From positions 1 to 64,000 of the forward strand of contig JAFLKN010000047.1 in the NCBI GenBank assembly GCA_019163175.1: a stretch of DNA of 64,000 nucleotides, written 5' to 3'. The stretch comes from Prolixibacteraceae bacterium (GTDB taxonomy: Bacteria > Bacteroidota > Bacteroidia > Bacteroidales > Prolixibacteraceae). The notes beneath the pieces were generated by a model. That model saw only the letters and a list, made by a program, of their open reading frames with translations. It had not been told where the DNA came from and did no database searches. Shown here piece after piece: positions 9,026 to 25,421 of the stretch. A program made the translations under genes and the position numbers. Each line of letters starts with the position of its first letter. Within the stretch, counting starts at the first letter, position 1.

Positions 9026-10207
9026 TTAAACCAATTCGAGTTTAACCTTTTTCAGGAAGCGTATTTCGAGTAAACGGACGATACGCTTTACCACGGATTT
9101 ACGTATTTCCAGTTCTACGGGCTGATCAGGATCCTGATGTGCCCAGTTGATGCGTGTTCCAACAATGATGTGAATAATATCGTGCTGAGTCAGCAGTTTC
9201 ACCACTTCTTCAGGCGGGCTATCCCCCAGACGCATGTCACTCGAATAGTTCTCCAGAATTTCCTCAACGCGTCCCAGTGTCAGGATTCCTTCGGTAACCA
9301 TTTCGAAACCTTCCATTTTAGCGGCAGGAGGCAATGTTTTTTCCGAAAAGCGATGCTGAATATCAATTTCCAAATCCAACTCGCGGGCAATAATTTCGGC
9401 AGTTGTGCCACCACAAATAATTTTCTTACCCGGAAATTCCTGAATCCGGTTTACAAAATCGGCATCTTTTATTTTGTAGAACGGCGGGCCGGTAATCAGC
9501 ATAAATTCGCGTGGTTGCCTGAAATAAACTACTCCGCAAGTGGCATCATCACGAATTTCGAAGGCATCGTTCATCGACGCCTGATTCAGAATTTTTCGGG
9601 CCAGTTTGGTTGCCGATATTTCATATTCACGGGCAATCTGGTTCTCGGCAAAGCGGGCAATGTAATCGAGTCCCCAACCAGTGGGGAAACGGGTGCTTCC
9701 CAAACCCGATTGATTAACGCCATCAGTCATAAAAATGATACGATCTTCGAGCATCGGAGTAAATTCCCGAATACGCAATATTTTACCTGCATTCTCTTCG
9801 CCCCTGATTGGAATCTGAAACTCTTTCGGCTCGAAAATCTGACCACGTCTGAAAATGACCGATCTGGGATTATCGTAATTGATAATCCTGACTAGTGCGT
9901 CTTCTTCAATCTCAATAATGGTGAAAGTGGCATAACTTTCTTTACCATCGAGGCTTTTAGGAAGTGCGCGCATAAAAATGTTTGCGGCAACCTCGGGCCG
10001 GGTATGAAATGAAGTGTAATTCAACGCCATTGATGCGGTCAGTGTGGCCAGCACATTCGCCTTAACACCATGCCCGATTCCATCCGAGAGCACGAGTATA
10101 GTTCTTCCTTCAGCTTTAATTTGCCGGGTATGAAAAACATCGCCACAAACAATCTGCCCGTGTCGTTTAAGTTGTTGCACATCTACTTCTATGTGATAAT
10201 CGGCCAT
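9026..10207 (-). CDS. SpoIIE-type PP2C phosphatase of the hydrogenase sensor cluster
   Basis: 393 residues. Residues 1-235 form a SpoIIE/PP2C-like Ser/Thr phosphatase domain with the metal-binding aspartates in CGDVF (Asp23), VLSDGIGHG (Asp42), FMTDGVNQSG and IRDDATCGVVYF. The remaining 160 residues (from about MLITGPPFYKIKDADF) form a separate alpha/beta domain I cannot name; it contains GKKIICGGTTAEIIARELDLE. No transmembrane segment or sensor domain is attached, so input must come from partners. It follows the double-PAS gene by 112 nt on the same strand and faces an RsbW-like kinase gene across a divergent promoter region, which suggests a phosphatase/kinase pair acting on a common protein target. 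The target (a SpoIIAA/RsbV-like STAS protein) is not in the cluster. Confidence 0.8.
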   Translation of the reverse strand: MADYHIEVDVQQLKRHGQIVCGDVFHTRQIKAEGRTILVLSDGIGHGVKANVLATLTASMALNYTSFHTRPEVAANIFMRALPKSLDGKESYATFTIIEIEEDALVRIINYDNPRSVIFRRGQIFEPKEFQIPIRGEENAGKILRIREFTPMLEDRIIFMTDGVNQSGLGSTRFPTGWGLDYIARFAENQIAREYEISATKLARKILNQASMNDAFEIRDDATCGVVYFRQPREFMLITGPPFYKIKDADFVNRIQEFPGKKIICGGTTAEIIARELDLEIDIQHRFSEKTLPPAAKMEGFEMVTEGILTLGRVEEILENYSSDMRLGDSPPEEVVKLLTQHDIIHIIVGTRINWAHQDPDQPVELEIRKSVVKRIVRLLEIRFLKKVKLELV

Positions 10208-10214
10208 CTTTCGG

Positions 10215-10248
10215 GTTCAAAGTTTCAGGTTTCAAGTTCAAAGTTTCA
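10215..10248. repeat. Decayed direct repeat between PAS and phosphatase genes
   Basis: The 13-mer GTTCAAAGTTTCA occurs at 10215-10227 and 10236-10248, with the related word GGTTTCAAG between. Similar GAAAC/TTTCA words occur in other gaps of this cluster (11936-11963, 14860-14890). Confidence 0.7.
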
Positions 10249-10319
10249 AATCAGTTTTTGTGGTTTTAAGATCACTGAAAACTGCGACTGAAAACTTTAT
10301 GTAGTAAATCGATCAATCC

Positions 10320-11246
10320 CTATTCATCCTCCCCGTACTTGTACGACTCGATGATAGAGTTCAGCAATTCCTCAGTCAGCGAAGCATTATCGCCCAACAG
10401 AAAAGCTATTTTCTGAACAGTTTCCAGATTTTGCCTGTTAACTCGCTGTGCCCTGCTTATAATTTCCTCACGAACAAGCGACGGTGCCGACATATCGCGC
10501 AGTAAAGCACCTACCACCCTATGCTTGTAAATGGTAATCACCGAAACGTGCAGTAACTTATTTTGGATTTTTAGATCGCGCTCAATCATATTTTCTCCTG
10601 ATACCAGTGTCGAAGAAAACATCTTATAAATTACATCTGGGACCAGTTCTTTGAGATCGGCACCATGAAGACCGGGTATAGTTTCGTACAGCTCTTCCAT
10701 TTCAGGCCCAAATAGCCTGGCAAAACCTTCGTTCGAATCAATTACTTTAAAATCACTGTCAATAATAATGATTCCCGCCCTGATTTTCTGCATCATCGCC
10801 GAAGCAATAACAGTTGCTTCCCGTGCTTTCTCCAATTTTCGCTCTGCCTTTTTCCGTTCGGTGATGTCGAAAATTGACCCAACAATTCCAGTAATTTCAT
10901 TCAGTTCGTTGCGAATTACAGCCTTGTTAAAAACCACATCGCGCAAAGTTCCGGCAGCATCGCGGAATTTGGCTTCATAACTCTGGTCACCAGGACTGTC
11001 CAGCAATTCCTGATCACGCTGGGCATATATCTCGGCAATTTCAAAAGGCTGAATATCGAAAACTGTTTTCCCGATAATTTGAGACTTGGGCAAACCTATC
11101 AATTTCTCCTGAGCCAGGTTGCAGGCTCGGTACACACCAGTCAAATCCCGATAAAAAATGGGTATTGGCAAGGCATCAATCACTTTTTGATGCAACTGAG
11201 GATCATCAATAAAATCCTGATTAAAAGATTTTTCTTCGTAAATCAT
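10320..11246 (-). CDS. Double-PAS signalling protein of the hydrogenase sensor cluster
   Basis: 308 residues with two PAS domains: residues about 15-130 (IDALPIPIFYRDLTGVYRACN; EITGIVGSIFDITERKKAER) and about 145-245 (MMQKIRAGIIIIDSDFKVIDSNEGFARLFG). No kinase, cyclase or DNA-binding output domain follows. The last 55 residues (EEIISRAQRVNRQNLETVQ and LLGDNASLTEELLNSIIESY) resemble the tail that follows the PAS domain in clostridial sensory [FeFe] hydrogenases as I remember it. Here the PAS part is a separate gene while the hydrogenase-like part is at 12383, which suggests the two proteins work as one split sensor. Divergent from the DRTGG gene and upstream of the SpoIIE-type phosphatase gene. 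Cytoplasmic; cofactor of the PAS domains unknown. Confidence 0.8.
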   Translation of the reverse strand: MIYEEKSFNQDFIDDPQLHQKVIDALPIPIFYRDLTGVYRACNLAQEKLIGLPKSQIIGKTVFDIQPFEIAEIYAQRDQELLDSPGDQSYEAKFRDAAGTLRDVVFNKAVIRNELNEITGIVGSIFDITERKKAERKLEKAREATVIASAMMQKIRAGIIIIDSDFKVIDSNEGFARLFGPEMEELYETIPGLHGADLKELVPDVIYKMFSSTLVSGENMIERDLKIQNKLLHVSVITIYKHRVVGALLRDMSAPSLVREEIISRAQRVNRQNLETVQKIAFLLGDNASLTEELLNSIIESYKYGEDE

Positions 11247-11542
11247 AGTGCTCGAATTTCGAACTTAAATTACGAAACCATTTGGGAATATTCAATTATA
11301 TTTTTCATCTGTTTACATTTTGCTTTTTGATCGTAAAATAGAACTCAATATCGGTAATCTCGCGTTTGAATGAGATCATCAATTCTGGCTGGTTTCTGGT
11401 TATTCAGTGAAGATCTCCTCTTCCAGATCATATCTAAAAACCTCTTAGTTATAACCAATCTAAATAAGAGACGATCTCAATTCTATTCACTACAATTCAG
11501 TAATTTTTCGGAAATTTGCCACAAACCCCTTTAAAAACAGGA
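11247..11542. other. Divergent control region of the sensor cluster
   Basis: About 296 nt without a gene between the PAS gene (minus) and the first DRTGG gene (plus). It holds a CTCTTA/TAAGAG inverted repeat at 11442-11470 and several GATCTC/GAGATC words (near 11369, 11414, 11473). No convincing paired TTTG/TAnnTTTG promoter was found on either strand. It must contain the start signals for both halves of the module. Confidence 0.5.
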
Positions 11543-11887
11543 ATGAAGTTAAAAGAGATCGCCGCAATTTTAGATGCAACGATATCGTGTGGAGCTGACA
11601 GATTGGATGATGAAGTGGAAATGGGTTACAGCTCCGACCTGATGAGTGATGTATTGACACTTGACACTGACAATTTAGTATTGATTTCTGGACTGGTAAA
11701 CCTTCAGGCTATTCGGACTGCCGAGATGGCTGACATACGAGCCATTGTTTTTGTCCGGAATAAGAAAGCTACTGCCCCAATGTTGGAACTGGCCATCGAA
11801 AACGGAATGTGCATACTCGAATCTCCCTATTCGCTTTTTAAATCGAGTGGGCTTTTGTTTCAGGCAGGGTTAAAACCGATTTATTGA
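11543..11887 (+). CDS. DRTGG-domain protein 1
   Basis: 114 residues from the ATG at 11543; a TTG at 11516 is in frame, but the ATG begins MKLKEIAAILDATIS, which aligns with the second copy (MKVSELVEKLDLKVY). The protein is a single DRTGG-type domain. Its diagnostic segment reads VEMGYSSDLMSDVL, so the TGG of the second copy is lost while SDLxSDV is kept. DRTGG domains are linked to nucleotide or regulatory binding in Pta and CBS proteins, but their job in hydrogenase clusters is not established. First gene of the plus-strand run; 85 nt before the RsbW-like gene. Cytoplasmic. Probably a small binding module for the sensory hydrogenase system. Confidence 0.75.
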   Translation: MKLKEIAAILDATISCGADRLDDEVEMGYSSDLMSDVLTLDTDNLVLISGLVNLQAIRTAEMADIRAIVFVRNKKATAPMLELAIENGMCILESPYSLFKSSGLLFQAGLKPIY

Positions 11888-11935
11888 TTAAAAAAATGTT
11901 ACGAGTTGCGGGATGCGAGTTTCAAGTGATTAACG

Positions 11936-11963
11936 CGCAACCCGAAACACGCAACCCGAAACA
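11936..11963. repeat. Tandem 14-bp repeat in sensor cluster
   Basis: CGCAACCCGAAACA is repeated head to tail at 11936-11949 and 11950-11963, preceded by a related inverted segment (GTTGCGGGATGCGAGTTTC, about 11905-11923). It fills the gap between the DRTGG and RsbW-like genes. Confidence 0.75.
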
Positions 11964-11972
11964 ACTTAAAAT

Positions 11973-12386
11973 TTGAAACTAACTTTTACCATACAAGGGG
12001 GCGATTTTACCCACGCCGGACATCCGTCGAGCGAGGTGAAAAAGATATTGAAGCAATTGGCTATCGACGGTAAAACGATTAAAAATATTGTAATTGCACT
12101 ATACGAAGCCGAGGTAAACGTTGTGGCACACGCCTGGAAAGGAACGGTGAATGTTGAAATCGACGAAAATAAAATCACGATTTGGGTGATTGATGAAGGT
12201 CCGGGTATTCCGGATGTTGAACTAGCCATGCAACCCGGATTTTCGACAGCCAGCAGTAAAGTTAGGGAGATGGGTTTTGGTGCCGGAATGGGTTTGCCAA
12301 ACATTAAAAAGAATACTGACAAATTACAAATTGAGACGGAAGTCGGAAAAGGAACCAAAGTAAAAATGGTTAACTATTTTTCATGA
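11973..12386 (+). CDS. RsbW-like anti-sigma-factor kinase (HATPase)
   Basis: 137 residues starting at a TTG (11973-11975): an in-frame TAA lies two codons upstream (11967-11969) and no ATG occurs before the conserved core, so the non-ATG start is forced. The fold is a GHKL ATPase of the RsbW/SpoIIAB kind: N-box ALYEAEVNVVAHAW, G1 box DEGPGIPD and G2 box GAGMGLPNI. Such proteins phosphorylate a STAS-domain antagonist and bind a sigma factor or other partner. It overlaps the next gene by 4 nt, so expression is coupled to the hydrogenase-like sensor. Together with the SpoIIE-type phosphatase at 9026 it forms the two enzymes of a partner switch. The antagonist is not encoded here. Confidence 0.82.
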   Translation: MKLTFTIQGGDFTHAGHPSSEVKKILKQLAIDGKTIKNIVIALYEAEVNVVAHAWKGTVNVEIDENKITIWVIDEGPGIPDVELAMQPGFSTASSKVREMGFGAGMGLPNIKKNTDKLQIETEVGKGTKVKMVNYFS

Positions 12387-13753
12387 ACGAATCAACAAAA
12401 TATCATGCTCTGGACGCCTCAAAATGTATCGGTTGCACGCATTGCATGAAATCGTGTCCAACCGAAGCAATTCGAGTTGTAAATGGCTTGGCCGTAATCG
12501 ACCACGAACGCTGTGTTTATTGTGGACAGTGCCATCGAGCTTGCCCCACCCATGCTTTCTATGTGGAACAGGACGATCTGGACCTGATTCGCTCATTCAA
12601 ATACCGAGTCATCCTGTTTCCTGCCATTATGATTGGTCAGTTTCCTGAAAGATATACTGAAGATCAGATTTACAATGGACTGAAAAAAGTAGGATTTACG
12701 CACGTATATGAAGTAGAACAGCCACAACAGGTGCTGATTGATTCAATCAATGAGGTAATCAATGATCAGGAAACACCCAAGCCTGCCATTTCAATTTATT
12801 GTCCTGCAATTGTCCGATTGATTCAGGGACGATACCCTTCGCTGACTGAGAATATGATTCTTCGAAAAGCGCCTCATAATCTTGCAGCCCATTTTGCTAT
12901 TGAAAGGTTGATGAAGGAAGGTGCTCAGCGCGAAGAAATAGGCTTATTTTATGCAACACCTTGTATTGCTAAAATCGCAGCAGTTAAAAGTCCGGTAGGT
13001 GAAAGCGAGTCGGTAGTGGATGGAATCGTCAATATGAATCAATTGTACAACGAGGTGATGAAAGTTATTTCGGATGTTGAAGTGGAAGACAATTCCGAAC
13101 AGCGTAAAAACCTTTCTTCAGAAGGTATCGTATGGAGCCTGACTCGCGGAGAATCTTGTCATTTCGGATCAAGAAGCATTGCCATTGACGGCATCCACAA
13201 TGCCGTACGTTTTCTGGAAAGGCTGGAAAACGATCAGGTTCATGGAATTGATTTTATTGAAATGAGGGCCTGTGACCAAAGTTGTGCCGGTGGAATTTTG
13301 CTTACGGGCAACCGGTTCATGACTGTTGAAAGGCTGGAACGGCGCGCAAAACGTTATCCGGCAGCTAAAGATATCTCTCAGGAAACGATTCGGGCAAATA
13401 GGATTGAGCTGAAAGAAAAACTCATTCTGGAGCCCATTCAGCCAAAACCACATTTTATTTTCGGGAAAGACCGGATGAAAGCCGTGGAAAAAATTGATCG
13501 CGCACAACGAATTGTGTGCTTTTTGCCGGGGATTGACTGCGGTGCCTGCGGTTCGCCCAATTGCCATGCACTGGCAGAAGATATGGTAAACAACAAAGCT
13601 AAAATGTCTGATTGCATATTCCTGCAGCAAATGTGGGTAGATGAGGGTAAGATAAAAGCTAAAAAAGCGTTCCTCAATGTTCAGAAGAAATGGGGAACCG
13701 ATAGATTTAAAGCAGATTGTAATAAAAGAGGACGACGAAATGAAGGTTTCTGA
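12383..13753 (+). CDS. Sensory [FeFe]-hydrogenase-like protein without PAS domain
   Basis: 456 residues. Residues 15-25 (CIGCTHCMKSCP) and 44-54 (CVYCGQCHRACP) bind two [4Fe-4S] clusters. A divergent H-cluster domain keeps all four ligand cysteines: Cys140 (SIYCPAI), Cys194 (ATPCIAK), Cys297 and Cys301 (RACDQSCAGG). The proton-relay cysteine of catalytic enzymes is Tyr139. A fourth Fe-S motif of the RnfB type follows: Cys387, Cys390, Cys395 (CGACGSPNC) and Cys412. The usual C-terminal PAS domain of sensory hydrogenases is absent; a double-PAS protein is encoded separately. Likely a cytoplasmic H2 or redox sensor rather than an efficient catalyst. It overlaps the kinase gene by 4 nt and DRTGG 2 by 14 nt. 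H-cluster occupancy is inference. Confidence 0.82.
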   Translation: MNESTKYHALDASKCIGCTHCMKSCPTEAIRVVNGLAVIDHERCVYCGQCHRACPTHAFYVEQDDLDLIRSFKYRVILFPAIMIGQFPERYTEDQIYNGLKKVGFTHVYEVEQPQQVLIDSINEVINDQETPKPAISIYCPAIVRLIQGRYPSLTENMILRKAPHNLAAHFAIERLMKEGAQREEIGLFYATPCIAKIAAVKSPVGESESVVDGIVNMNQLYNEVMKVISDVEVEDNSEQRKNLSSEGIVWSLTRGESCHFGSRSIAIDGIHNAVRFLERLENDQVHGIDFIEMRACDQSCAGGILLTGNRFMTVERLERRAKRYPAAKDISQETIRANRIELKEKLILEPIQPKPHFIFGKDRMKAVEKIDRAQRIVCFLPGIDCGACGSPNCHALAEDMVNNKAKMSDCIFLQQMWVDEGKIKAKKAFLNVQKKWGTDRFKADCNKRGRRNEGF

Positions 13754-14075
13754 ACTAGTAGAAAAACTCGATTTAAAAGTGTATTCGGGCCAAAAAGGTT
13801 TGGATCGCGAAATTACCGGTGGATATGTTTCCGATTTACTGAGCGATGTAATGGGAAATGCACAGGAAGGCCAACTATGGATTACCCTTCAGGTACACCA
13901 AAATGTTATAGCTATAGCTTCGTTGAAAGATATGGCTGCAGTAATTTTGGTCAATAATCTGGAACCACAGGAAAACACCATCAGTCACTCCAACGACGAA
14001 AATGTTCCTGTTCTGGGAACCAGCCTTCCTACATTCGAAATTGCAGGTAAGCTATTCCAAATTCTTAATTCCTAA
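13740..14075 (+). CDS. DRTGG-domain protein 2
   Basis: 111 residues from the ATG at 13740, which lies inside the end of the hydrogenase-like sensor gene (14-nt overlap) behind AGAGGACGACGAA. A single DRTGG-type domain with the better preserved motif LDREITGGYVSDLLSDVMGN. It is a paralogue of the gene at 11543 (MKxxEl...SDLxSDV) and the pair brackets the kinase and sensor genes. Two nt before the PHP gene. The tight overlaps suggest translational coupling and a stoichiometric complex. Function in signalling is inference. Confidence 0.8.
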   Translation: MKVSELVEKLDLKVYSGQKGLDREITGGYVSDLLSDVMGNAQEGQLWITLQVHQNVIAIASLKDMAAVILVNNLEPQENTISHSNDENVPVLGTSLPTFEIAGKLFQILNS

Positions 14076-14077
14076 GC

Positions 14078-14821
14078 ATGAAATTCTACAGGACTGATCT
14101 TCATATCCACACGGCTTTATCTCCATGCGGCGATTTGGACATGAGTCCTTCAACCATTGTAAATCTGGCGCTTAAGCGTGGTTTGGACATTATTGGGATT
14201 ACCGACCACAACAGCACGAAACAATGCAAAATGGTTTGGGAACTGGCAAAAAAAACTGGCTTAGTCGTCATTCCGGGATGCGAAATGACAAGTCGCGAAG
14301 AAGTTCACTGTCTGGGTCTATTCGAAGATTTTGAATCATTGGCAATTTTTCAGAATTTCTTAGACAATCATCTGACACTTATACCTAACAATATCAGCAT
14401 ATTTGGATTTCAGGTGGTGGTTGACGAAAATGAAAATGTATTGGAAGAAATAGACAATTATTTAGGTGCATCACTCGATGTGAGCATCGAAGAAATAGAA
14501 CAGAAAGTGCACGAACTCTCCGGGATTTTTATTCCGGCGCATGTTGACCGGCCCCGAAACAGCCTCTTTAGTCAGTTGGGGTTCATTCCGCCTGAATTAA
14601 AAATTGATGCTCTTCAGATTTCGAAGCTGGCCATTGAAAAAGCAGTTCGTCAACGATACGGAATTACGCCCGAAATAACTTTGGTTAAGTTTTCGGATTC
14701 GCACTACGCGGATGATTTGGGCAAAACATATACCTTGTTTGAAATGGAAGAACCTTCTTTTAAGGAATTGAGAAAGGCATTGTTGGGAGAAGCGGGAAGA
14801 AGTGTTCGGATTCCGGAGTAA
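14078..14821 (+). CDS. PHP-domain metal-dependent phosphoesterase
   Basis: 247 residues of a PHP domain with the metal ligands in TDLHIHTALSPCGD (residues about 5-18), DIIGITDHNS, PGCEMTSREEVH, FIPAHVDRP and VKFSDSHYADDL. PHP proteins hydrolyse phosphate mono- or diesters with two or three bound metals (histidinol phosphatase, oligonucleotide/nucleotide phosphatases). Two nt after DRTGG 2, so in the same operon. In this context a nucleotide or phosphosignal hydrolase is plausible but the substrate cannot be read from the sequence. Complete, with no obvious missing ligand. Confidence 0.85.
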   Translation: MKFYRTDLHIHTALSPCGDLDMSPSTIVNLALKRGLDIIGITDHNSTKQCKMVWELAKKTGLVVIPGCEMTSREEVHCLGLFEDFESLAIFQNFLDNHLTLIPNNISIFGFQVVVDENENVLEEIDNYLGASLDVSIEEIEQKVHELSGIFIPAHVDRPRNSLFSQLGFIPPELKIDALQISKLAIEKAVRQRYGITPEITLVKFSDSHYADDLGKTYTLFEMEEPSFKELRKALLGEAGRSVRIPE

Positions 14822-14834
14822 AAGTGATCAGTTA

Positions 14835-14848
14835 AAACAAATTTGTTT
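14835..14848. repeat. 14-bp palindrome before the HATPase gene
   Basis: AAACAAATTTGTTT is a perfect palindrome in the 74-nt gap between the PHP and HATPase genes; the rest of the gap holds GGAACT/GAAACT words like those in the other gaps of the cluster. Could be an operator or chance in AT-rich DNA. Confidence 0.5.
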
Positions 14849-14895
14849 AAAGAGCCAAGCTGGAATTTGGAACTAGAAATCTGAAACTTATTTGA

Positions 14896-15444
14896 ATGAA
14901 AGACCTTTCACTACATATTCTAGACATTGTTCAGAATTCAATTCGGGCAAAAGCGAGCCTGATCAGCATTGAAATCGAAGAACTGGTCACAGAGAATCAG
15001 CTAATCATTTCCATTACCGACGATGGCACAGGCATGAGCCCTGAACAACTGCAGCAAGCCACTGATCCGTTTTATACTTCAAGAACAACACGAAAAGTTG
15101 GACTAGGGTTATCTCTTTTCAAACAAAATGCAGAGATTGCTGGTGGAAGCTTTCGTATCGAATCAGAATTAGGTAAAGGCACAAAAGTGACCGCCACATT
15201 TGGACTGAACCACCTCGACCGACCTGTAATGGGCGATTTGGTTGGCACTCTGCTGCTGCTGATTTGTTCTTCAGACAAAACAGACTATGCATTTAAACAC
15301 CGAACCACTATGGGCGAATTTGTGCTGGATACCCGAGAAGTAAAGCAAATGCTGCTAGATGTACCTCTTTCACATCCTGATGTAAGAAAGTTTCTAAAAG
15401 AAATGCTTCAGGAGAATTTAGAACAAATACAAATAAGTGAATGA
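14896..15444 (+). CDS. Stand-alone HATPase (histidine-kinase-type ATP-binding) protein
   Basis: 182 residues. Residues 1-105 are a GHKL ATPase domain with N-box (HILDIVQNSIRAKAS), G1 box (DDGTGM), the FYTSR F-box and G2 box (GLGLSLFKQNAEIAGG). There is no dimerisation/phosphoacceptor His domain and no sensor part. The C-terminal 75 residues (VGTLLLLICSSDKTDYAF; TREVKQMLLDVPLSHPDVRKFL) are a conserved-looking extension I cannot name. It is distinct from the RsbW-like kinase at 11973, so the module carries two unrelated GHKL proteins. It may phosphorylate a partner in trans or act as a nucleotide-dependent switch. Last regulatory gene before the hydrogenase subunits. Confidence 0.75.
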   Translation: MKDLSLHILDIVQNSIRAKASLISIEIEELVTENQLIISITDDGTGMSPEQLQQATDPFYTSRTTRKVGLGLSLFKQNAEIAGGSFRIESELGKGTKVTATFGLNHLDRPVMGDLVGTLLLLICSSDKTDYAFKHRTTMGEFVLDTREVKQMLLDVPLSHPDVRKFLKEMLQENLEQIQISE

Positions 15445-15532
15445 TGACAAAACTTAGAGATTAAGTGATTTAAAGTGCTGATCTTTAACGAATAATGACA
15501 ATTATCATTAAAACCCCCATATCAACACAACT

Positions 15533-15928
15533 ATGAACAAGATAAAATCGCTGGCTGACTTAAAAAAATTGCAATCCGAAGTACAGTCGAAAATCAAATT
15601 ACGCGAAAAAGGCGACAATCCGGATAGTCTGATTCAGATCAAAGTTTCGATGGCTACCTGCGGCATTGCTTCAGGAGCAAAAGAGACCATGACCTACCTG
15701 ATTGAAGAACTGGATCACCAGGGAATAGATGCCATTGTTACCCAAACCGGCTGCATGGGCTATTGTTATGCCGAACCAACCATCGAAGTCACCATTCCGG
15801 GGCAAAAGCCTGTGGTATATGGCTTTGTAAACAAAACTAAAGCCCAGGAAATCATCGAAAAACACCTCAAATTCAACGAAATGGTTGACGGAATTATTCC
15901 GGCAGCTTATGCCACAATCAACAATTAA
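15533..15928 (+). CDS. Thioredoxin-like [2Fe-2S] ferredoxin
   Basis: 131 residues with a thioredoxin-like [2Fe-2S] ferredoxin fold. The ligands are Cys43 (MATCGIASGAKE) and the pair in TGCMGYC (about residues 81-85), with a second upstream ligand less clear than in typical members, which carry C-x4-C-type spacing; here Ala/Ser occupy part of that segment. The N-terminal 35 residues (SLADLKKLQSEVQSKIKLREKG) are helical. It precedes hydB by 19 nt and very likely shuttles or relays electrons for the hydrogenase. Related small proteins commonly precede HydB in bifurcating-hydrogenase operons. First gene of the structural part of the operon after an 88-nt gap. Confidence 0.8.
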   Translation: MNKIKSLADLKKLQSEVQSKIKLREKGDNPDSLIQIKVSMATCGIASGAKETMTYLIEELDHQGIDAIVTQTGCMGYCYAEPTIEVTIPGQKPVVYGFVNKTKAQEIIEKHLKFNEMVDGIIPAAYATINN

Positions 15929-15947
15929 TTCAAATACACGGACTATT

Positions 15948-17741
15948 ATGGCCGAATATAACATGCATATCCTTGTTTGCGGGGGAACCGGCTGCAAGGC
16001 ATCTCAAAGTGAACTGATAAAAACAAATTTTAAAACCAGGCTTAACGAGTTCGGACTTGCCGACGAAATTCAGGTAATTCTTACCGGATGTTTCGGATTT
16101 TGCGAAAAAGGACCTATCGTAAAAATTCTTCCCGACAATACTTTTTACACTCAGGTTACTCCCGAAGATGTTGATGAAATCGTGGAAGAACACATTATTA
16201 AAGGCCGAAAAGTAGAGCGTTTACTTTATAAAGATCCGGAAACCCACGAAATTGTTGGAGACTCAAAGGGAATGGACTTTTACAAAAAACAGATTCGTAT
16301 CGCACTTCGCAATTGTGGGTTCATCAATCCTGAAAACATTGAAGAATACATTGGACGCGATGGTTACGCTGCCTTGGGAACTTGTCTTTCAGAAAAGACT
16401 CCGGACGAAGTTATCCGAATGATTAAAGACTCCGGACTGCGCGGGCGAGGTGGCGGCGGTTTCCCAACGGGACTAAAATGGGAACTGACCCGAAAATCAG
16501 TCAGCGACCAAAAATATGTGGTTTGCAATGCCGACGAGGGTGATCCTGGCGCATTTATGGATCGTTCCATTCTGGAAGGTGATCCGCATTCAGTACTCGA
16601 ATCCATGGCCATCTGCGGTTATTGTATCGGAGCGGACAAAGGTTTAGTTTACATCCGTGCTGAATATCCGTTGGCCATCGAACGGCTGAAAATTGCCATT
16701 AATCAGGCACGTGAATACGGTCTTCTGGGTAATGACATTTTGGGAACCGGATTTAATTTTGATATCGAAATTCGATACGGAGCCGGAGCTTTTGTATGCG
16801 GCGAAGAAACTGCACTAATTCATTCGATGGAAGGCAAACGCGGAGAACCGGGTGTAAAACCACCATTTCCGGCCGAAAAAGGATACAATGGCAAACCCAC
16901 CAACGTGAACAATGTGGAAACTTTTGCCAACATTCCGGTCATCATTAACAAAGGTGCGGAATGGTTCGCGTCCATCGGGACGGCCAATTCGAAAGGAACT
17001 AAAGTATTTGCCCTTGCCGGAAAAATTAACAATGTGGGATTGATCGAAGTTCCAATGGGAATAACCCTACGCGAAATTATATACGACATCGGAGGCGGAA
17101 TAAAAGATGGTCGTGAATTTAAAGCTGTTCAAACCGGAGGACCTTCAGGAGGCTGCCTGACCAAATCGTTTCTGGATACTCCTATTGATTACGACAATCT
17201 GGTAGCAGCAGGTTCAATGATGGGTTCAGGCGGAATGATTGTACTTGACGATTCGGATTGTATGGTTGCCATCGCCAAATTCTACCTTGAATTTACGCTC
17301 GATGAATCGTGCGGGAAATGCACACCTTGTAGAATTGGAAATAAACGTTTGTATGAAATTCTGGAAAAAATAACCGAAGGAAACGGAAAACTGGAAGACC
17401 TTGATAGGTTAAGGATGCTGAGCACAGTTATCAAAGATACTTCGCTGTGTGGTTTGGGTCAGACATCTCCAAATCCGGTGCTTTCCACACTCGACCATTT
17501 TTACGACGAATACCTGGCCCATGTCACTACGCATAAATGTTTGGCAGGCCAATGTAAGGCATTAGTTAATTATGCAATCGATACCGATCGTTGCACCGGC
17601 TGTACACTTTGTTTCCGAAATTGCCCTGTTGGAGCTATTTCAGGCGAACGCCGTGCTCCTCATTATATCGATAAATCGCTTTGCATCAAATGCGGTGTAT
17701 GTTTTGAGAAATGCAAGTTTGATGCAGTATTAATCGCATAA
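15948..17741 (+). CDS. hydB: NADH-binding subunit HydB of electron-bifurcating [FeFe] hydrogenase
   Basis: 597 residues from ATG 15948 (MAEYNMHILVCGGTGCKAS); an upstream in-frame start would overlap the ferredoxin gene and lacks conservation. Domains: thioredoxin-like [2Fe-2S] (residues about 8-90; LTGCFGFCEKG), NuoF-type FMN/NADH-binding core (about 150-500; GRGGGGFPTGLKWE, CNADEGDPGAFMDR, GAYxCGEETAL as GAFVCGEETAL), [4Fe-4S] site CGKCTPCR, and a C-terminal double [4Fe-4S] ferredoxin domain (CTGCTLCFRNCP and CIKCGVCFEKC). This full set matches HydB of Thermotoga-type bifurcating enzymes, which couple H2, NAD(H) and ferredoxin. Followed by hydA after 12 nt. Confidence 0.93.
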   Translation: MAEYNMHILVCGGTGCKASQSELIKTNFKTRLNEFGLADEIQVILTGCFGFCEKGPIVKILPDNTFYTQVTPEDVDEIVEEHIIKGRKVERLLYKDPETHEIVGDSKGMDFYKKQIRIALRNCGFINPENIEEYIGRDGYAALGTCLSEKTPDEVIRMIKDSGLRGRGGGGFPTGLKWELTRKSVSDQKYVVCNADEGDPGAFMDRSILEGDPHSVLESMAICGYCIGADKGLVYIRAEYPLAIERLKIAINQAREYGLLGNDILGTGFNFDIEIRYGAGAFVCGEETALIHSMEGKRGEPGVKPPFPAEKGYNGKPTNVNNVETFANIPVIINKGAEWFASIGTANSKGTKVFALAGKINNVGLIEVPMGITLREIIYDIGGGIKDGREFKAVQTGGPSGGCLTKSFLDTPIDYDNLVAAGSMMGSGGMIVLDDSDCMVAIAKFYLEFTLDESCGKCTPCRIGNKRLYEILEKITEGNGKLEDLDRLRMLSTVIKDTSLCGLGQTSPNPVLSTLDHFYDEYLAHVTTHKCLAGQCKALVNYAIDTDRCTGCTLCFRNCPVGAISGERRAPHYIDKSLCIKCGVCFEKCKFDAVLIA

Positions 17742-17753
17742 AATAACCCAATT

Positions 17754-19505
17754 ATGGAAATGATAAATCTCACTATAGATCATAAACCGGTAGTTGTCCG
17801 CAAAGGAACTACTGTTTTAAAAGCGGCTTCGAGCATCGGAATTGATATTCCATCGCTTTGCTACATGAAGCTCGATGATATGAATATCGAAAATAAACCT
17901 GGTGGCTGTCGCGTTTGTGTGGTCGAGATCAAAGGCCGGAGAAATCTGGCACCGGCCTGTTGCACCGAAGCGGCAGAAGGAATGGAAGTAAATACACATT
18001 CAATAAGGGTAGTAAATGCCCGCCGTACGGTTGTTGAACTGATTTTATCAGACCATCCGGCCGACTGTTTGATTTGTGCCAAATCGGGCAATTGCGAACT
18101 TCAGAATATGGCGACTCATTTGGGAATACGGCAGATTCACTATCAAGGTGAGCAGTCCATGTATCGCGAAGATACCTCACCAGCCATCATTCGTGAAATA
18201 AACAAATGTATCATGTGTCGCCGTTGCGAAACGATGTGCAACGAGGTACAAACAGTTGGTGTCCTTTCCGCTGTAAACCGCGGATTTCAGGCCGTAGTGG
18301 CTCCTGCATTCGAGATGAACCTCGACCATTCTGTATGCACATATTGCGGTCAGTGTGTGGCAGTTTGCCCAACTGGCGCCTTAACTGAAGTTGACGAAAC
18401 CGGCGCCGTTATCCGTGCATTATCCGATCCAACCAAAACCGTTGTAGTACAGACTGCTCCCGCCGTTCGTGCTGCCTTGGGCGAAGAATTCGGAATGCCG
18501 GCAGGAACATTGGTTACCGGTAAAATGGTTGCTGCACTGCGCCGTTTAGGTTTCGATTATGTTTTCGATACCGATTTTGCTGCCGACCTTACCATCTTGG
18601 AAGAAGGAACCGAATTACTGAACCGTTTATCAGCTTTTATGGAAGGAGATAAAAATGTAAAACTTCCAATCCTGACTTCCTGCTGCCCGGCCTGGGTCAA
18701 ATTCTTTGAGCATTCTTTCCCCGAATTGAAAGATATTCCTTCAACAGCACGATCGCCTCAGCAAATGTTCGGCTCCATTGCCAAAACCTATTTTGCTGAT
18801 AAAATTGGAGTGAAACGCGAAAATTTGGTGGTAGTTTCCATCATGCCATGTCTGGCTAAAAAATACGAAAGTAGCCGCCCCGAGTTTTCAGTCAATGGTA
18901 ATCCTGATGTAGACTTTGCTTTGTCAACGCGCGAGCTGGCCCATCTGATTAATCTGGGAAACATCGAATTCAAAACTTTGCCCAATGAAGAATTTGACAA
19001 GCCTTTGGGAGAATCAACTGGTGCTGCTGTGATTTTTGGAACAACCGGCGGAGTTATTGAAGCTGCTGTGCGAACAGCTTACGAGATATTCACAGGAAAA
19101 CCACTCCCGCGTGTTGATTTCGAAGAACTGCGTGGAATGGATGGTTTGCGAAAAGCAACTATAGATTTCAACGGAACACCTATCAATATCGGTATTGCGC
19201 ATGGATTGGGAAATGCCCGCAAATTGCTGGAAGATATTCAGGCAGGAAACAGTGAATTTCACGCTATTGAAATTATGTCGTGTCCAGGAGGTTGTATTGG
19301 TGGTGGTGGTCAACCATATCACCATGGCGATGCTGAAATATTGAAGAAACGGCAACGTGCTATTTATTCTGAAGACAAAAATAAAACACTTCGGAAATCG
19401 CACGAAAATCCATACATCACAAAGCTTTATGAAGAATTCTTGGGCGCTCCGATGAGTGAAAAGGCGCATCATCTGCTGCATACCAAATATTTTGACCGGA
19501 GTTAA
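17754..19505 (+). CDS. hydA: Catalytic subunit HydA of [FeFe] hydrogenase, group A
   Basis: 583 residues. N-terminal [2Fe-2S] ferredoxin domain (Cys36, Cys51-type ligands in SLCY, GGCRVCVV), a His/Cys [4Fe-4S] region (DHPADCLICAKSGNCELQ), two [4Fe-4S] clusters (CIMCRRCETMC, CTYCGQCVAVCP) and an H-cluster domain with L1 TSCCPAW (308-314), L2 MPCLAKKYE (Met364-Cys366) and L3 IMSCPGGCIGGGG (Met508-Cys514). All ligands and the proton-relay Cys310 are present; Ser509 replaces the common Ala. C-terminal small-subunit-like tail ends KAHHLLHTKYF. It lacks the extra C-terminal [2Fe-2S] domain of Thermotoga HydA. Catalyses H2 oxidation or evolution in the cytoplasm with HydB and HydC. A perfect 28-bp palindrome lies between it and hydC. 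Confidence 0.95.
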   Translation: MEMINLTIDHKPVVVRKGTTVLKAASSIGIDIPSLCYMKLDDMNIENKPGGCRVCVVEIKGRRNLAPACCTEAAEGMEVNTHSIRVVNARRTVVELILSDHPADCLICAKSGNCELQNMATHLGIRQIHYQGEQSMYREDTSPAIIREINKCIMCRRCETMCNEVQTVGVLSAVNRGFQAVVAPAFEMNLDHSVCTYCGQCVAVCPTGALTEVDETGAVIRALSDPTKTVVVQTAPAVRAALGEEFGMPAGTLVTGKMVAALRRLGFDYVFDTDFAADLTILEEGTELLNRLSAFMEGDKNVKLPILTSCCPAWVKFFEHSFPELKDIPSTARSPQQMFGSIAKTYFADKIGVKRENLVVVSIMPCLAKKYESSRPEFSVNGNPDVDFALSTRELAHLINLGNIEFKTLPNEEFDKPLGESTGAAVIFGTTGGVIEAAVRTAYEIFTGKPLPRVDFEELRGMDGLRKATIDFNGTPINIGIAHGLGNARKLLEDIQAGNSEFHAIEIMSCPGGCIGGGGQPYHHGDAEILKKRQRAIYSEDKNKTLRKSHENPYITKLYEEFLGAPMSEKAHHLLHTKYFDRS

Positions 19506-19508
19506 AAG

Positions 19509-19536
19509 GTACAAACGTTGCATGCAACGTTTGTAC
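19509..19536. repeat. Perfect 28-bp palindrome between hydA and hydC
   Basis: Arm GTACAAACGTTGCA (19509-19522) is followed directly by its exact reverse complement (19523-19536) with no spacer, 3 nt after the hydA stop codon. There is no U-run, so it is not an intrinsic terminator. The core GTTGCATGCAAC resembles palindromic repeats I remember as dispersed in Bacteroidota and Cyanobacteria. Confidence 0.85.
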
Positions 19537-19583
19537 AGTTCTGATTTATAAATGATATTGCAATTTCAAAAGAAACCCAGGTT

Positions 19584-20090
19584 ATGTCAAAAATAAAACT
19601 TTCAGAAAAAACCATCGGAATCATTCAGCAAGTCTGTTCTGATTTCAGGAATGAAGGCAGTGAATTGATTAATGTTTTGCACCAGGTTCAGGGAAAACTT
19701 GGCTATTTACCTGCTGAAGTTCAGGAAGTAATAGCTAAAGAACTCAATATTTCGGTCGCTAAAGTTTACGGAGTAGTAACTTTCTATTCCTTCTTTACCA
19801 TGATTCCGATGGGCGAACATCCCATTTCCATTTGCATGGGAACTGCTTGCTATGTGCGTGGTTCAGAACAGGTACTGGCCGAATTTAAACGTCAGCTAAG
19901 TATCGAAGTCGGTCAAAGTACTGCAGACAATAAATTCTCGCTCAACTGTTTGCGCTGCGTTGGTGCATGTGGACTGGCTCCTGTAGTTATGGTAGGCGAA
20001 AAAGTTTACGGACGCGTATCGCCTCAGCAAGTCAAAAACATTATTGCAGAATATAAGGAAGGTGGTGCTTCGGAGGCCAAAACAGCTTAA
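19584..20090 (+). CDS. hydC: NuoE-like subunit HydC of [FeFe] hydrogenase
   Basis: 168 residues of the NuoE/24-kDa family: helical N-terminus (SELINVLHQVQGKLGYLPAEV), VAKVYGVVTFYSFF signature and a thioredoxin-like [2Fe-2S] site with Cys84 and Cys89 (CMGTAC) and Cys125 and Cys129 (CVGAC). It completes the HydABC trimer by passing electrons between the flavin site of HydB and the rest of the enzyme. Gene order is HydB-HydA-HydC, unlike the HydC-first order of the second set at 23750. The 78-nt gap from hydA carries a palindrome, so relative expression could be set there. Ends at a strong terminator. Confidence 0.92.
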   Translation: MSKIKLSEKTIGIIQQVCSDFRNEGSELINVLHQVQGKLGYLPAEVQEVIAKELNISVAKVYGVVTFYSFFTMIPMGEHPISICMGTACYVRGSEQVLAEFKRQLSIEVGQSTADNKFSLNCLRCVGACGLAPVVMVGEKVYGRVSPQQVKNIIAEYKEGGASEAKTA

Positions 20091-23749: not shown

Positions 23750-24235
23750 ATGAACCCAGTTACTGAACTGATCAAAAATCTGGCCGACCAACATGGGAGA
23801 AGCAGGCATAATTTACTTCCGATTCTTCAGGGAGTTGTTGAGCAGGAAAAATACCTTTCAGAATTTTCTATGACTGAAATTGCTCGTGAATTGGACTTGC
23901 CCGCAGCCGAAGTTTATGGCACTGCAACCTTCTATTCTTTTCTCGAGCACAAAAAAATGGGTAAATACATTATTCGGGTTTGTAAAACCATTACCTGCTC
24001 CATGAAAGGAAAGAACCAAATTATATTGGCCATCGAAGACATGCTTAAAATTAATGCAGGCGAAACAACTCCCGATGGAAATTTCTCATTGCTTCAAACC
24101 AACTGCCTCGGATTTTGCCACAAAGCTCCGGCAATGCTTATTAATAACGAAATTTATACAGAGTTGACTCCTGAAAAAGTAAGGGAAATTCTAAGTACTT
24201 ATTTGAAAAAGAAAGGAGAATCGAATGACAACTAA
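23750..24235 (+). CDS. NuoE-like subunit of second NADH-linked [FeFe] hydrogenase
   Basis: 161 residues of the NuoE family: LLPILQGVVEQEKYLSEFSM, LPAAEVYGTATFYSFLEHK and the [2Fe-2S] ligands Cys78, Cys83 (CKTITC) and Cys119, Cys123 (CLGFC). First gene of a compact three-gene set; it overlaps the NuoF-like gene by 11 nt. About 35-40% alike to HydC at 19584 by eye, so the two sets are not a recent duplication. Transfers electrons between flavin and Fe-S chain in a soluble HydABC-type complex. Confidence 0.9.
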   Translation: MNPVTELIKNLADQHGRSRHNLLPILQGVVEQEKYLSEFSMTEIARELDLPAAEVYGTATFYSFLEHKKMGKYIIRVCKTITCSMKGKNQIILAIEDMLKINAGETTPDGNFSLLQTNCLGFCHKAPAMLINNEIYTELTPEKVREILSTYLKKKGESNDN

Positions 24236-25409
24236 TTATCAGTTAAAACGCGTTGATTTTATTTTTAAGAATGAGAACGACTGGGAAGAAGTGCTAAGCA
24301 AAAACATCGAGCGACCTTCTCAGGAGTTGATTAACGAGTTGATTAGTTCAGAATTAAAGGGAAGAGGTGGTGCCGGATTTCCTACAGGTTTAAAATGGAA
24401 ACTATCGGCTGAAGCTGTTGATGAAATCAAATATGTAATTTGCAATGCCGATGAAGGTGAACCCGGAACTTTCAAAGATCGGGAAATTCTGTCGAGGGTT
24501 CCTTTTAAAGTTCTGACGGCAATGGCTGTTTGCGGTCATGTGATCGGAGCTAAAGAAGGATACATTTACCTGCGCGGCGAATACTTTTTTCTTCAACCGG
24601 AGTTGAATAAGGCCATTAGTGAATTCGAATATTATTGCAAAGAAATTAATCTCGATTTTAAAATCAAGATATTTATGGGCAGCGGTGCTTACATCTGCGG
24701 CGAAGAAACTGCCCTTTTTGAGTCGATGGAAGGCAAACGAGGTGAACCACGAAACAAACCCCCCTACCCTTCTTCGTATGGATACATGGGCAAGCCAACC
24801 GTTATCAATAATGTGGAAACACTGGCACATACCTTCACCATTTTTAAATATGGCGCCAAGCGGTTTTACGATTTGGGCGTACAATATTCAAGAGGTTCAA
24901 AGCTGTTTTCGGTTTCAGGAGATACACCCAAACCCGGAATTTATGAACTCGAATTGGGCATGAGTCTGGCCGATTTTGTCGATGAGTTTGGTGACGGCGA
25001 TACCAAAGCCGTTCAGGTTGGAGGTGCTTCCGGATTTCTGGTTCCGCGCAAACGATTTAGTGAAACAGCAATCGGGTTTCAGGGGAAACTTACTGGGATT
25101 TCCCTGCCAACCGGAGGTTCAATGATGCTATTCAATAGCTCGCGTTCCATGTTCAATGTACTCGATAATTACCTTGAATTTTTCCGCGAAGAATCCTGCG
25201 GGCAATGTACTCCGTGTCGTGTAGGTTGTCAGCAATTGCTTAAAGGGATTAAGGCTGTTAAGCGTGGCGAAAAAAATGCTCAGTATCTCGACAAGCTGAT
25301 GCGTCTGGCAGAAACTATGCAATACACCGCGAAATGTGGGTTGGGCCAGTCGGTGGCAAATTCATTTTCGTCCATTGTCGAAAATTTCAGGGAAGAAATG
25401 ATTTACTAA
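24225..25409 (+). CDS. Short NuoF-like NADH-binding subunit of second [FeFe] hydrogenase
   Basis: 394 residues consisting only of the NuoF core: GRGGAGFPTGLKWK, CNADEGEPGTFKDRE (FMN site), GSGAYICGEETALFESMEGKRGEPR, NNVETLAH and a [4Fe-4S] site CGQCTPCRVGC with a distal Cys near residue 373 (KCGLGQS). It lacks both the N-terminal [2Fe-2S] domain and the C-terminal double [4Fe-4S] ferredoxin domain found in HydB at 15948. Short HydB forms are known from trimeric NADH-dependent hydrogenases that do not need ferredoxin, so this enzyme may be a plain NAD(H)-linked hydrogenase. That functional reading is inference. 12 nt before the catalytic subunit gene. Confidence 0.9.
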   Translation: MTTNYQLKRVDFIFKNENDWEEVLSKNIERPSQELINELISSELKGRGGAGFPTGLKWKLSAEAVDEIKYVICNADEGEPGTFKDREILSRVPFKVLTAMAVCGHVIGAKEGYIYLRGEYFFLQPELNKAISEFEYYCKEINLDFKIKIFMGSGAYICGEETALFESMEGKRGEPRNKPPYPSSYGYMGKPTVINNVETLAHTFTIFKYGAKRFYDLGVQYSRGSKLFSVSGDTPKPGIYELELGMSLADFVDEFGDGDTKAVQVGGASGFLVPRKRFSETAIGFQGKLTGISLPTGGSMMLFNSSRSMFNVLDNYLEFFREESCGQCTPCRVGCQQLLKGIKAVKRGEKNAQYLDKLMRLAETMQYTAKCGLGQSVANSFSSIVENFREEMIY

Positions 25410-25421
25410 AACTGAATTAAA

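Follow-up and report, generated by a model that had tools for sequence, protein, structure and literature searches.

A stretch of 64,000 nucleotides from a Prolixibacteraceae bacterium of the order Bacteroidales (GenBank assembly GCA_019163175.1, contig JAFLKN010000047.1, positions 1 to 64,000; here called the window) encodes HydS, a group D putative sensory [FeFe]-hydrogenase, among signalling genes upstream of the electron-bifurcating hydrogenase HydABC. Comparison with related genomes revealed a conserved core order: a DRTGG protein (DRTGG-a), a SpoIIAB/RsbW-like kinase, group D HydS, a second DRTGG protein (DRTGG-b), a PHP-family phosphoesterase, a GHKL ATPase (HATPase), a small iron-sulphur (FeS)-type protein and HydB-HydA-HydC. 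The signalling set is also found with relatives of the enzyme other than iron hydrogenases, and the module therefore probably serves in the redox control of the bifurcating (Bfu) enzyme family and is not simply a hydrogen sensor.

In anaerobes of the gut, the rumen and digesters, the redox economy is governed by electron-bifurcating enzymes, whose control is, to our knowledge, poorly known. That group D hydrogenases are sensory has so far been argued on the grounds of neighbouring genes and of the properties of the enzymes. The available part of one study bases the proposal on the relation to group C, the H2 affinity, the CO tolerance and the place upstream of HydABC, where a histidine kinase-like ATPase and an AraC gene are neighbours (PMC8163306). 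In the accessible sections of two papers on Bfu enzymes, HisK and HydD are not regarded as enzyme parts and are 'assumed' to be maturation or regulation genes (PMC9304861, PMC8880783). A search of openly licensed literature, which left subscription papers and supplements aside, returned no description of a DRTGG-kinase-HydS module in the text available; the accessible parts of PMC6288185, PMC11406978, PMC4374699 and PMC10055695 hold no account of one, and for DRTGG proteins together with hydrogenases only an AAA-DRTGG gene of Desulfovibrio turned up.

HydS, the kinase and HydB were each searched in 198 genomes of the order. HydS matched in 69 genomes at E<=1e-20, and 58 of these were taken as group D-like (E<=1e-50); the remaining 11 matches score far lower and, judged by size, look like group C. 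Neighbourhoods were fetched for 50 of the 57 group D-like genomes other than that of the window, leaving out five with stops inside the match (G335, G391, G329, G333, G413) and two with a split or partial match (G300, G470), while all 57 enter the co-occurrence counts. With two loci from other lineages, this gives a set of 52 loci, many of them cut by contig ends. A GTDB-wide set, partly overlapping with the first, comprises the best 80 of 569 confirmed loci, nearly all Bacteroidota by title. In 52/52 fetched and 78/80 best GTDB loci, the kinase gene is the immediate upstream neighbour of HydS and has the same orientation (gap of -250 to 400 nucleotides). The proposal of an earlier sequence-only reading of the window that a sensory hydrogenase and its kinase set are tied to bifurcating HydABC is supported.

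Among the 52 loci, the kinase was found in 52, DRTGG-a in 48, DRTGG-b in 46, PHP in 44, the HATPase in 40, HydB in 37, HydA and HydC in 35 each and the small FeS-type protein in 33. The corresponding numbers for the best 80 GTDB loci are 80 each for DRTGG-a and the kinase, 68 for DRTGG-b, 67 for PHP, 63 for the HATPase, 60 for HydB and 59 for the small protein. Two further genes that the sequence-only reading had joined to the others in a single unit of eight behave differently: the SpoIIE gene, which in the window encodes a phosphatase of the PP2C/SpoIIE kind, occurs in only 5/52 and 19/80 loci, the PAS gene in 5 and 20, and both together in 4/52 and 19/80. The pair is optional across related loci, and the idea of one conserved eight-gene unit was therefore given up.

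The kinase is present in 62 of the 198 genomes, namely all 58 with group D-like HydS and 4 others, and HydB (E<=1e-150) in 141, among them all 62 kinase genomes. HydB of the window clade (at least 70% identity) was found in 59 of the 62 kinase genomes versus 9 of the 136 kinase-less ones, as judged with Fisher tests that ignore shared ancestry; three kinase genomes fall outside the clade. The kinase-less members include two genomes that are 100% complete (G303, G373) and one of 99% (G230), as well as G365, where PHP and HATPase genes stand at a contig end. Since 9 of the 68 genomes with window-clade HydB have no kinase, the kinase module does not seem to be a subunit that the enzyme requires.

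Other lineages of the phylum carry the six core genes, in the same order, inside [NiFe] Bfu operons (7 genomes). The fullest of these loci (L093, L219, L222) begin with HdrC, a CCG protein, an HdrA-like protein, DRTGG, kinase, HydS, DRTGG, PHP and HATPase, and continue with NuoE, the small FeS-type protein, NuoF, BfuA and the small and large NiFe subunits; in L093, the CCG and HdrA-like genes are separated by a dehydrogenase gene, and a small MvhD-type protein was tested with Pfam in L219 only. The large subunit was recognised in five of the seven genomes, by Pfam in G172, G180, G577 and G542 and by 88% identity in G558, and the contigs of G494 and G525 end before its position. BfuA of G172, G180 and G577 has no hydrogenase (H) domain. 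In four further genomes (G363, G439, G526, G491), a DRTGG gene, a DRTGG-kinase fusion and HydS precede NuoE, NuoF, a molybdopterin-type BfuA (PF00384 in 4/4) and a GltD-like protein; a DHODB-like protein was recognised in three of them, and PHP and HATPase were not recognised at these four loci. The common factor across all contexts seen is the HydBC core.

HydS itself can be missing while the kinase set stays, as in 4 of the 62 kinase genomes (G383, G440, G327, G443). There, kinase and DRTGG-b follow each other without HydS in between, in an uninterrupted series of DRTGG-a, kinase, DRTGG-b, PHP and HATPase; the small FeS-type protein, HydB, BfuA/HydA and HydC come next in three of them, and the contig of G327 stops after the HATPase. 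In G383 (L227), the HydA position is taken by a 905-residue molybdopterin (formate-dehydrogenase-type) BfuA (PF00384, E 5e-86) beside a HydB of 75% identity; downstream are SpoIIE and a sensor tail of the group C type. A candidate counter-example that seemed to have HydS as its only H-domain protein, G296, was discarded because its HydB is cut at a contig end. The tie to an [FeFe]-hydrogenase assumed in the sequence-only reading does not hold in general, and occurrence beside [NiFe] and molybdopterin/GltD-type enzymes is of the kind that this reading had itself named as evidence against it. In view of these enzyme contexts and of the HydS losses, H2 sensing that sets hydrogenase expression would be no more than one of the module's uses.

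The maturase HydG was not found in any of the seven [NiFe]-type genomes (G172, G494, G577, G558, G525, G180, G542), nor in G526 and G491 (0/9), whereas 10 of the 11 other genomes in the same search gave a match that passed the cut-off. The remaining two molybdopterin/GltD-type genomes, G363 and G439, do have HydG, so that it was not found in 9 of the 11 genomes with non-FeFe contexts. HydS is the sole H-domain protein in the first five [NiFe]-type genomes listed. A missing HydG is no proof of a missing H-cluster, however, because G180, G542, G526 and G491 carry a group A HydA, and the equation of the two is weakened accordingly. The search for HydF (0/13 above cut-off) is weak evidence, since only 1 of 14 controls passes and no known HydF-bearing Bacteroidota genome was among them. 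As a separate observation, eight genomes (G366, G298, G399, G390, G526, G491, G542, G180) have a group A HydA and neither HydG nor HydF above the cut-offs. Several HydA-bearing genomes in which neither was detected are estimated to be 97-100% complete; incomplete bins or an unknown maturation route may be responsible.

The kinase shows the features of its type. Glu45, Glu47 and Asn49 of the N box are present in 135/135 sequences, the G boxes are kept and the best sequence matches in the PDB are SpoIIAB structures (E 3e-8); its 69 bits against TIGR01925 lie below the cut-off of 135 for SpoIIAB itself. With the PF13581 match, this agrees with its earlier assignment to the partner-switch kinases. 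The DRTGG-kinase gene fusion exists in four genomes (DRTGG half with E 2e-7 to 3e-4, passing the Pfam cut-off in one). An AlphaFold model of the fusion protein of L091 (predicted local distance difference test, pLDDT, 90.3; predicted template modelling score, pTM, 0.80) matches SpoIIAB best (1til and 1l0o, root-mean-square deviation (rmsd) 1.8-1.9; 1til with a template modelling (TM) score of 0.87 of target and rmsd 1.8; 1l0o is the SpoIIAB complex with sigma F) and also matches the DRTGG structures 2ioj and 3l31. A motif SDL(M/L)SDV is common to both DRTGG families, and its second Ser is found in 130/130 DRTGG-a and 120/120 DRTGG-b sequences; a PDB sequence search with DRTGG-b returned only HPr kinase, at E 0.16. 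The PHP protein keeps the metal-ligand motifs DLHIHT, TDHN, AH and SDxH.

The model of the 182-residue GHKL ATPase (pLDDT 91.4) consists of a GHKL fold from residue 4 and a short second part, and the folds most similar to it are those of MutL/PMS2 and of the ATP domains of histidine kinases. The model contains no dimerization and histidine phosphotransfer (DHp) domain with a phosphoacceptor His and Pfam gives only HATPase families; for lack of DHp, the assignment as a histidine kinase was rejected. A HydD-like protein and a GHKL 'HisK' are shared with the A. mobile NiFe-HydABCSL operon, which also has HydP (PMC9304861, PMC8880783). The window GHKL protein differs in that it has no domain with a phosphoacceptor histidine, and its gene belongs to a group of six conserved ones for which the available parts of those papers give no account.

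Whether these proteins together form a conserved switch with redox input, in which kinase and DRTGG proteins control the accompanying HydBC-core enzyme, is in our estimation about an even question. In the STAS partner of a SpoIIAB-type kinase, it is a conserved Ser that becomes phosphorylated, and the invariant DRTGG Ser is therefore a natural candidate site. In such a switch, HydS, or something else where HydS is absent, would report the redox or H2 state and the kinase would phosphorylate a DRTGG protein at the invariant Ser, as SpoIIAB does with its STAS protein. The PHP protein, in the window also SpoIIE driven by the PAS protein, would reverse the phosphorylation, and the state of the DRTGG protein would alter the shared HydBC core in its activity or, with lower probability, in its amount. 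The order DRTGG-kinase-HydS mirrors, by analogy only, the antagonist-kinase-sigma order of spoIIAA-spoIIAB-sigF. The likeness to this system and to RsbV-RsbW-sigB further includes the catalytic residues of the kinase and the SpoIIE of the window; the differences are that DRTGG and FeS proteins occupy the positions of STAS and sigma proteins and that the phosphatase is usually absent. No STAS antagonist was found with Pfam among the eight genes, as the sequence-only reading had said of this locus, and the two STAS proteins of the genome lie on other contigs; within 9026-20090, neither a sigma factor nor any other known target was recognised.

A bolder version, possible but doubtful, sees here a new partner switch. 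DRTGG would replace STAS as the phosphorylated antagonist, the FeS/H-domain protein would stand in sigma's place, and the HydBC core would be the direct object of the switch for any third substrate (H2 by FeFe or NiFe, formate, NADPH-type). The group D 'sensory hydrogenases' would in that case serve as its redox arms, in some lineages without an H-cluster.

Several points weigh against a kinase/DRTGG switch acting on the HydBC core. Phosphorylation, the residue used and the contact with HydBC are inferred, and the fold match comes from the fusion protein of a relative rather than from the window kinase or DRTGG proteins. The invariant Ser-Asp of the DRTGG motif could instead be structural. Each phosphatase candidate is missing in some of the 52 loci, PHP in 8 (some of them contig-end cuts) and SpoIIE in 47. 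Outside Bacteroidota, only two loci were seen: L186, from a bin labelled Desulfoluna and with changed gene order, and L225 (Clostridia, Subdoligranulum variabile, a plasmid-database record), where HydC, the small FeS-type protein, HydB and HydA are divergent from the adjoining kinase-HydS-DRTGG-PHP genes. The module can also stand apart from HydABC (e.g. L072, L077, L085), as would be expected of action in trans but also of a transcriptional output.

HydS of the window, whose closest relatives are those of Prolixibacteraceae bins (84-88%), has the architecture of group D: two N-terminal [4Fe-4S] motifs (Cys 15/18/21/25 and 44/47/50/54), the H domain, a C-terminal Cx2Cx4Cx16C motif (386-389-394-411) and no fused PAS domain. 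Tyr139 replaces C299 and Thr192 replaces M353, and the H-cluster ligands Cys140/194/297/301 are kept. Across the family, the four ligands are retained in 135-137 of 137 sequences and Lys197 in 134/137, and all five residues are present in the [NiFe]-context proteins of L093, L094, L217-L220 and L222. In two proteins, those of G526 (L221 9184-10536) and G491 (L223 9168-10430), the position of Cys297 in window numbering is occupied by His; both belong to genomes in which HydG was not found. Judged from the available parts of the reports on TamHydS of Thermoanaerobacter mathranii (PMC8163306, PMC13104023), the window protein shares with it the two N-terminal [4Fe-4S] motifs, the H domain, the loss of C299, the change of M353 to Thr/Ser, the C-terminal motif, the lack of PAS and the place next to HydABC with a GHKL ATPase. 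What differs is that a full partner set (kinase, two DRTGG proteins, PHP and a second GHKL protein) is defined here and that the homologues also accompany non-FeFe Bfu enzymes, mostly in genomes where HydG was not found.

The optional SpoIIE and PAS genes of the window point to another class of sensors. In the PAS protein, residues 132-303 show 42% identity over 172 residues to the tail of a 628-residue group C HydS in G430 (L232), which adjoins a SpoIIE homologue and for which Pfam reports H, FeS and PAS domains. A conserved C-terminal domain of SpoIIE (residues ~229-393), unnamed in Pfam, is common to the SpoIIE proteins of L232 and L227 (51-52%) and of L008, L009, L011 and L021 (35-40%), and in the latter four loci it adjoins group C hydrogenases. 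The window PAS protein has no H domain according to Pfam and does not qualify as a group C sensor. The sequences suggest a group C-type signalling pair, with the H domain gone and an extra PAS domain in its place, beside a group D-type module. A SpoIIE-type phosphatase beside a PAS sensor is also the arrangement of group C sensory [FeFe]-hydrogenase pairs in the accessible part of PMC11837493 (HfsB/HfsC of Thermoanaerobacterium, HydS of Ruminococcus albus), and the window pair is homologous to such a pair in L232; it differs by its second PAS for the hydrogenase domain and by the lack of a group C hydrogenase in the genome.

The homology of this pair and the retained H-cluster Cys and Lys197, the [NiFe] setting included, favour an explanation close to that of the sequence-only reading: HydS would be an H2 sensor, and a partner switch of kinase and SpoIIE would set hydABC transcription via some antagonist, sigma factor or transcription factor. 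HydG in two of the four molybdopterin/GltD-type genomes agrees with it, and so does T. mathranii, whose group D HydS, according to the available text, is H2-active and located upstream of HydABC, flanked by a histidine kinase-like ATPase and an AraC regulator (PMC8163306). We nevertheless hold this explanation to be unlikely. The conserved set includes no recognised STAS, sigma or DNA-binding gene, the module also accompanies [NiFe] and molybdopterin/GltD-type enzymes with HydG mostly not found, and HydS is lost from 4/62 kinase genomes. Moreover, the C-terminal cluster of TamHydS is described as unresponsive to H2 in the accessible part of PMC13104023. What stands of the earlier claim of an H2 sensor of hydrogenase expression is the conserved HydS-kinase set at HydABC; the non-FeFe contexts and the HydS losses speak against the rest.

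That the module goes with the shared core and not with the catalytic subunit would also suit an assembly or maturation aid, with the two GHKL ATPases and their partners as chaperones that load FeS and flavin mononucleotide (FMN) cofactors into the HydBC core. GHKL ATPases include machines of the MutL/Hsp90 type, a weak match to MutL/PMS2 (TM about 0.5, rmsd about 8) extends over the full HATPase, and the available part of PMC8880783 allows for 'maturation and/or regulation'. This role is quite improbable in our view, given the window-clade HydB genomes without the kinase (9/68, the three nearly or fully complete ones included), the invariant kinase-type Glu/Asn residues and a PHP phosphoesterase better suited to signalling. 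That HydS is merely an extra redox/H2 enzyme or subunit among hitch-hiking housekeeping genes, as the generic names of every gene in the existing annotation (L226) might suggest, is very improbable in the face of the 58/58 co-occurrence with the kinase, the fixed order, the DRTGG-kinase fusion and the kinase set kept after HydS loss.

For the window itself, all eight open reading frames (ORFs) of the sequence-only reading were found within 9026-15444, two on the minus and six on the plus strand, and the ORF list and Pfam domains agree with it, DRTGG-a staying below the Pfam cut-off. Its two overlaps were also recovered: 4 nucleotides between the kinase stop (12386) and the HydS ATG (12383), and 14 nucleotides between the HydS stop (13753) and DRTGG-b, provided that the latter starts at its conserved Met (13740), which is residue 22 of the longest ORF from 13677. 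The ORF of DRTGG-a opens at TTG 11516, and its conserved Met is at 11543. The six plus-strand genes do precede HydB-HydA-HydC, but a small protein that had not been listed intervenes; its 2Fe-2S and DUF1636 matches are weak, every one below the cut-offs. HydABC has the composition of a Bfu enzyme, namely HydB with an FMN domain and FeS clusters, a NuoE-like HydC and HydA with an H domain. The coordinates are collected below.

Table 1. Genes of the signalling module and of the adjoining bifurcating hydrogenase in the window
Feature	Position	Strand	Properties
SpoIIE/PP2C-type phosphatase	9026..10207	-	393 aa; PF07228 E 4e-14
Double-PAS protein	10320..11246	-	308 aa; two PAS domains, PF08448 2e-15
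DRTGG-a, stand-alone DRTGG-type domain	11543..11887	+	SDLMSDV motif; 16.2 bits vs Pfam cut-off 25.2
SpoIIAB/RsbW-like serine-kinase-type GHKL protein	11973..12386	+	137 aa, TTG start; PF13581 9e-13
HydS, group D (M2e) putative sensory [FeFe]-hydrogenase	12383..13753	+	456 aa; PF02906 4e-23, Fer4 and PF04060
DRTGG-b	13740..14075	+	SDLLSDV motif; PF07085 2.7e-6
PHP-family phosphoesterase	14078..14821	+	PF02811 7e-9; metal-ligand motifs kept
GHKL ATPase ('HisK' in literature)	14896..15444	+	182 aa; PF02518 2e-19
Small thioredoxin-like [2Fe-2S]-type protein, HydD-like (by position and weak matches)	15533..15928	+	
HydB / BfuB, FMN, NADH- and ferredoxin-type subunit	15948..17741	+	PF01512, PF10589, Fer4
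HydA, catalytic [FeFe]-hydrogenase subunit of bifurcating enzyme	17754..19505	+	NCBIfam NF040763 (group A6) E 2e-270, above cut-off
HydC / BfuC, NuoE-like	19584..20090	+	PF01257 E 7e-50

The window genome has three H-domain (PF02906) proteins in total, all on this contig, and HydG is present, its match reading through one TAA; a radical SAM protein in the window was taken for HydE. A second set, hydC-hydB-hydA in the order C, B, A, lies 3.7 kb downstream at 23750-27212, with a shorter HydB that has no N-terminal [2Fe-2S] domain; a set resembling this second one adjoins the module in many relatives. A perfect 12-bp inverted repeat with a 4-nucleotide loop (19509-19536) lies between HydA and HydC. 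Short repeated runs, caacccgaaac-like and ttcaaagtttcaggtttcaa-like, were seen by eye in the intergenic regions 11888-11972 and 10208-10300 and are possibly small repeats. A scan for consensus promoters found 22 against 22.1 expected.

The conserved partner set supplies named, testable proteins for the control of electron bifurcation, and the [NiFe] and molybdopterin contexts suggest the shared HydBC core as the controlled object. Redox sensing and H2 sensing could be told apart with the help of natural controls, namely the genomes that have no HydS and those in which HydG was not detected. If the reading as a new partner switch were true, the module would be a regulator dedicated to electron bifurcation, irrespective of the third substrate.

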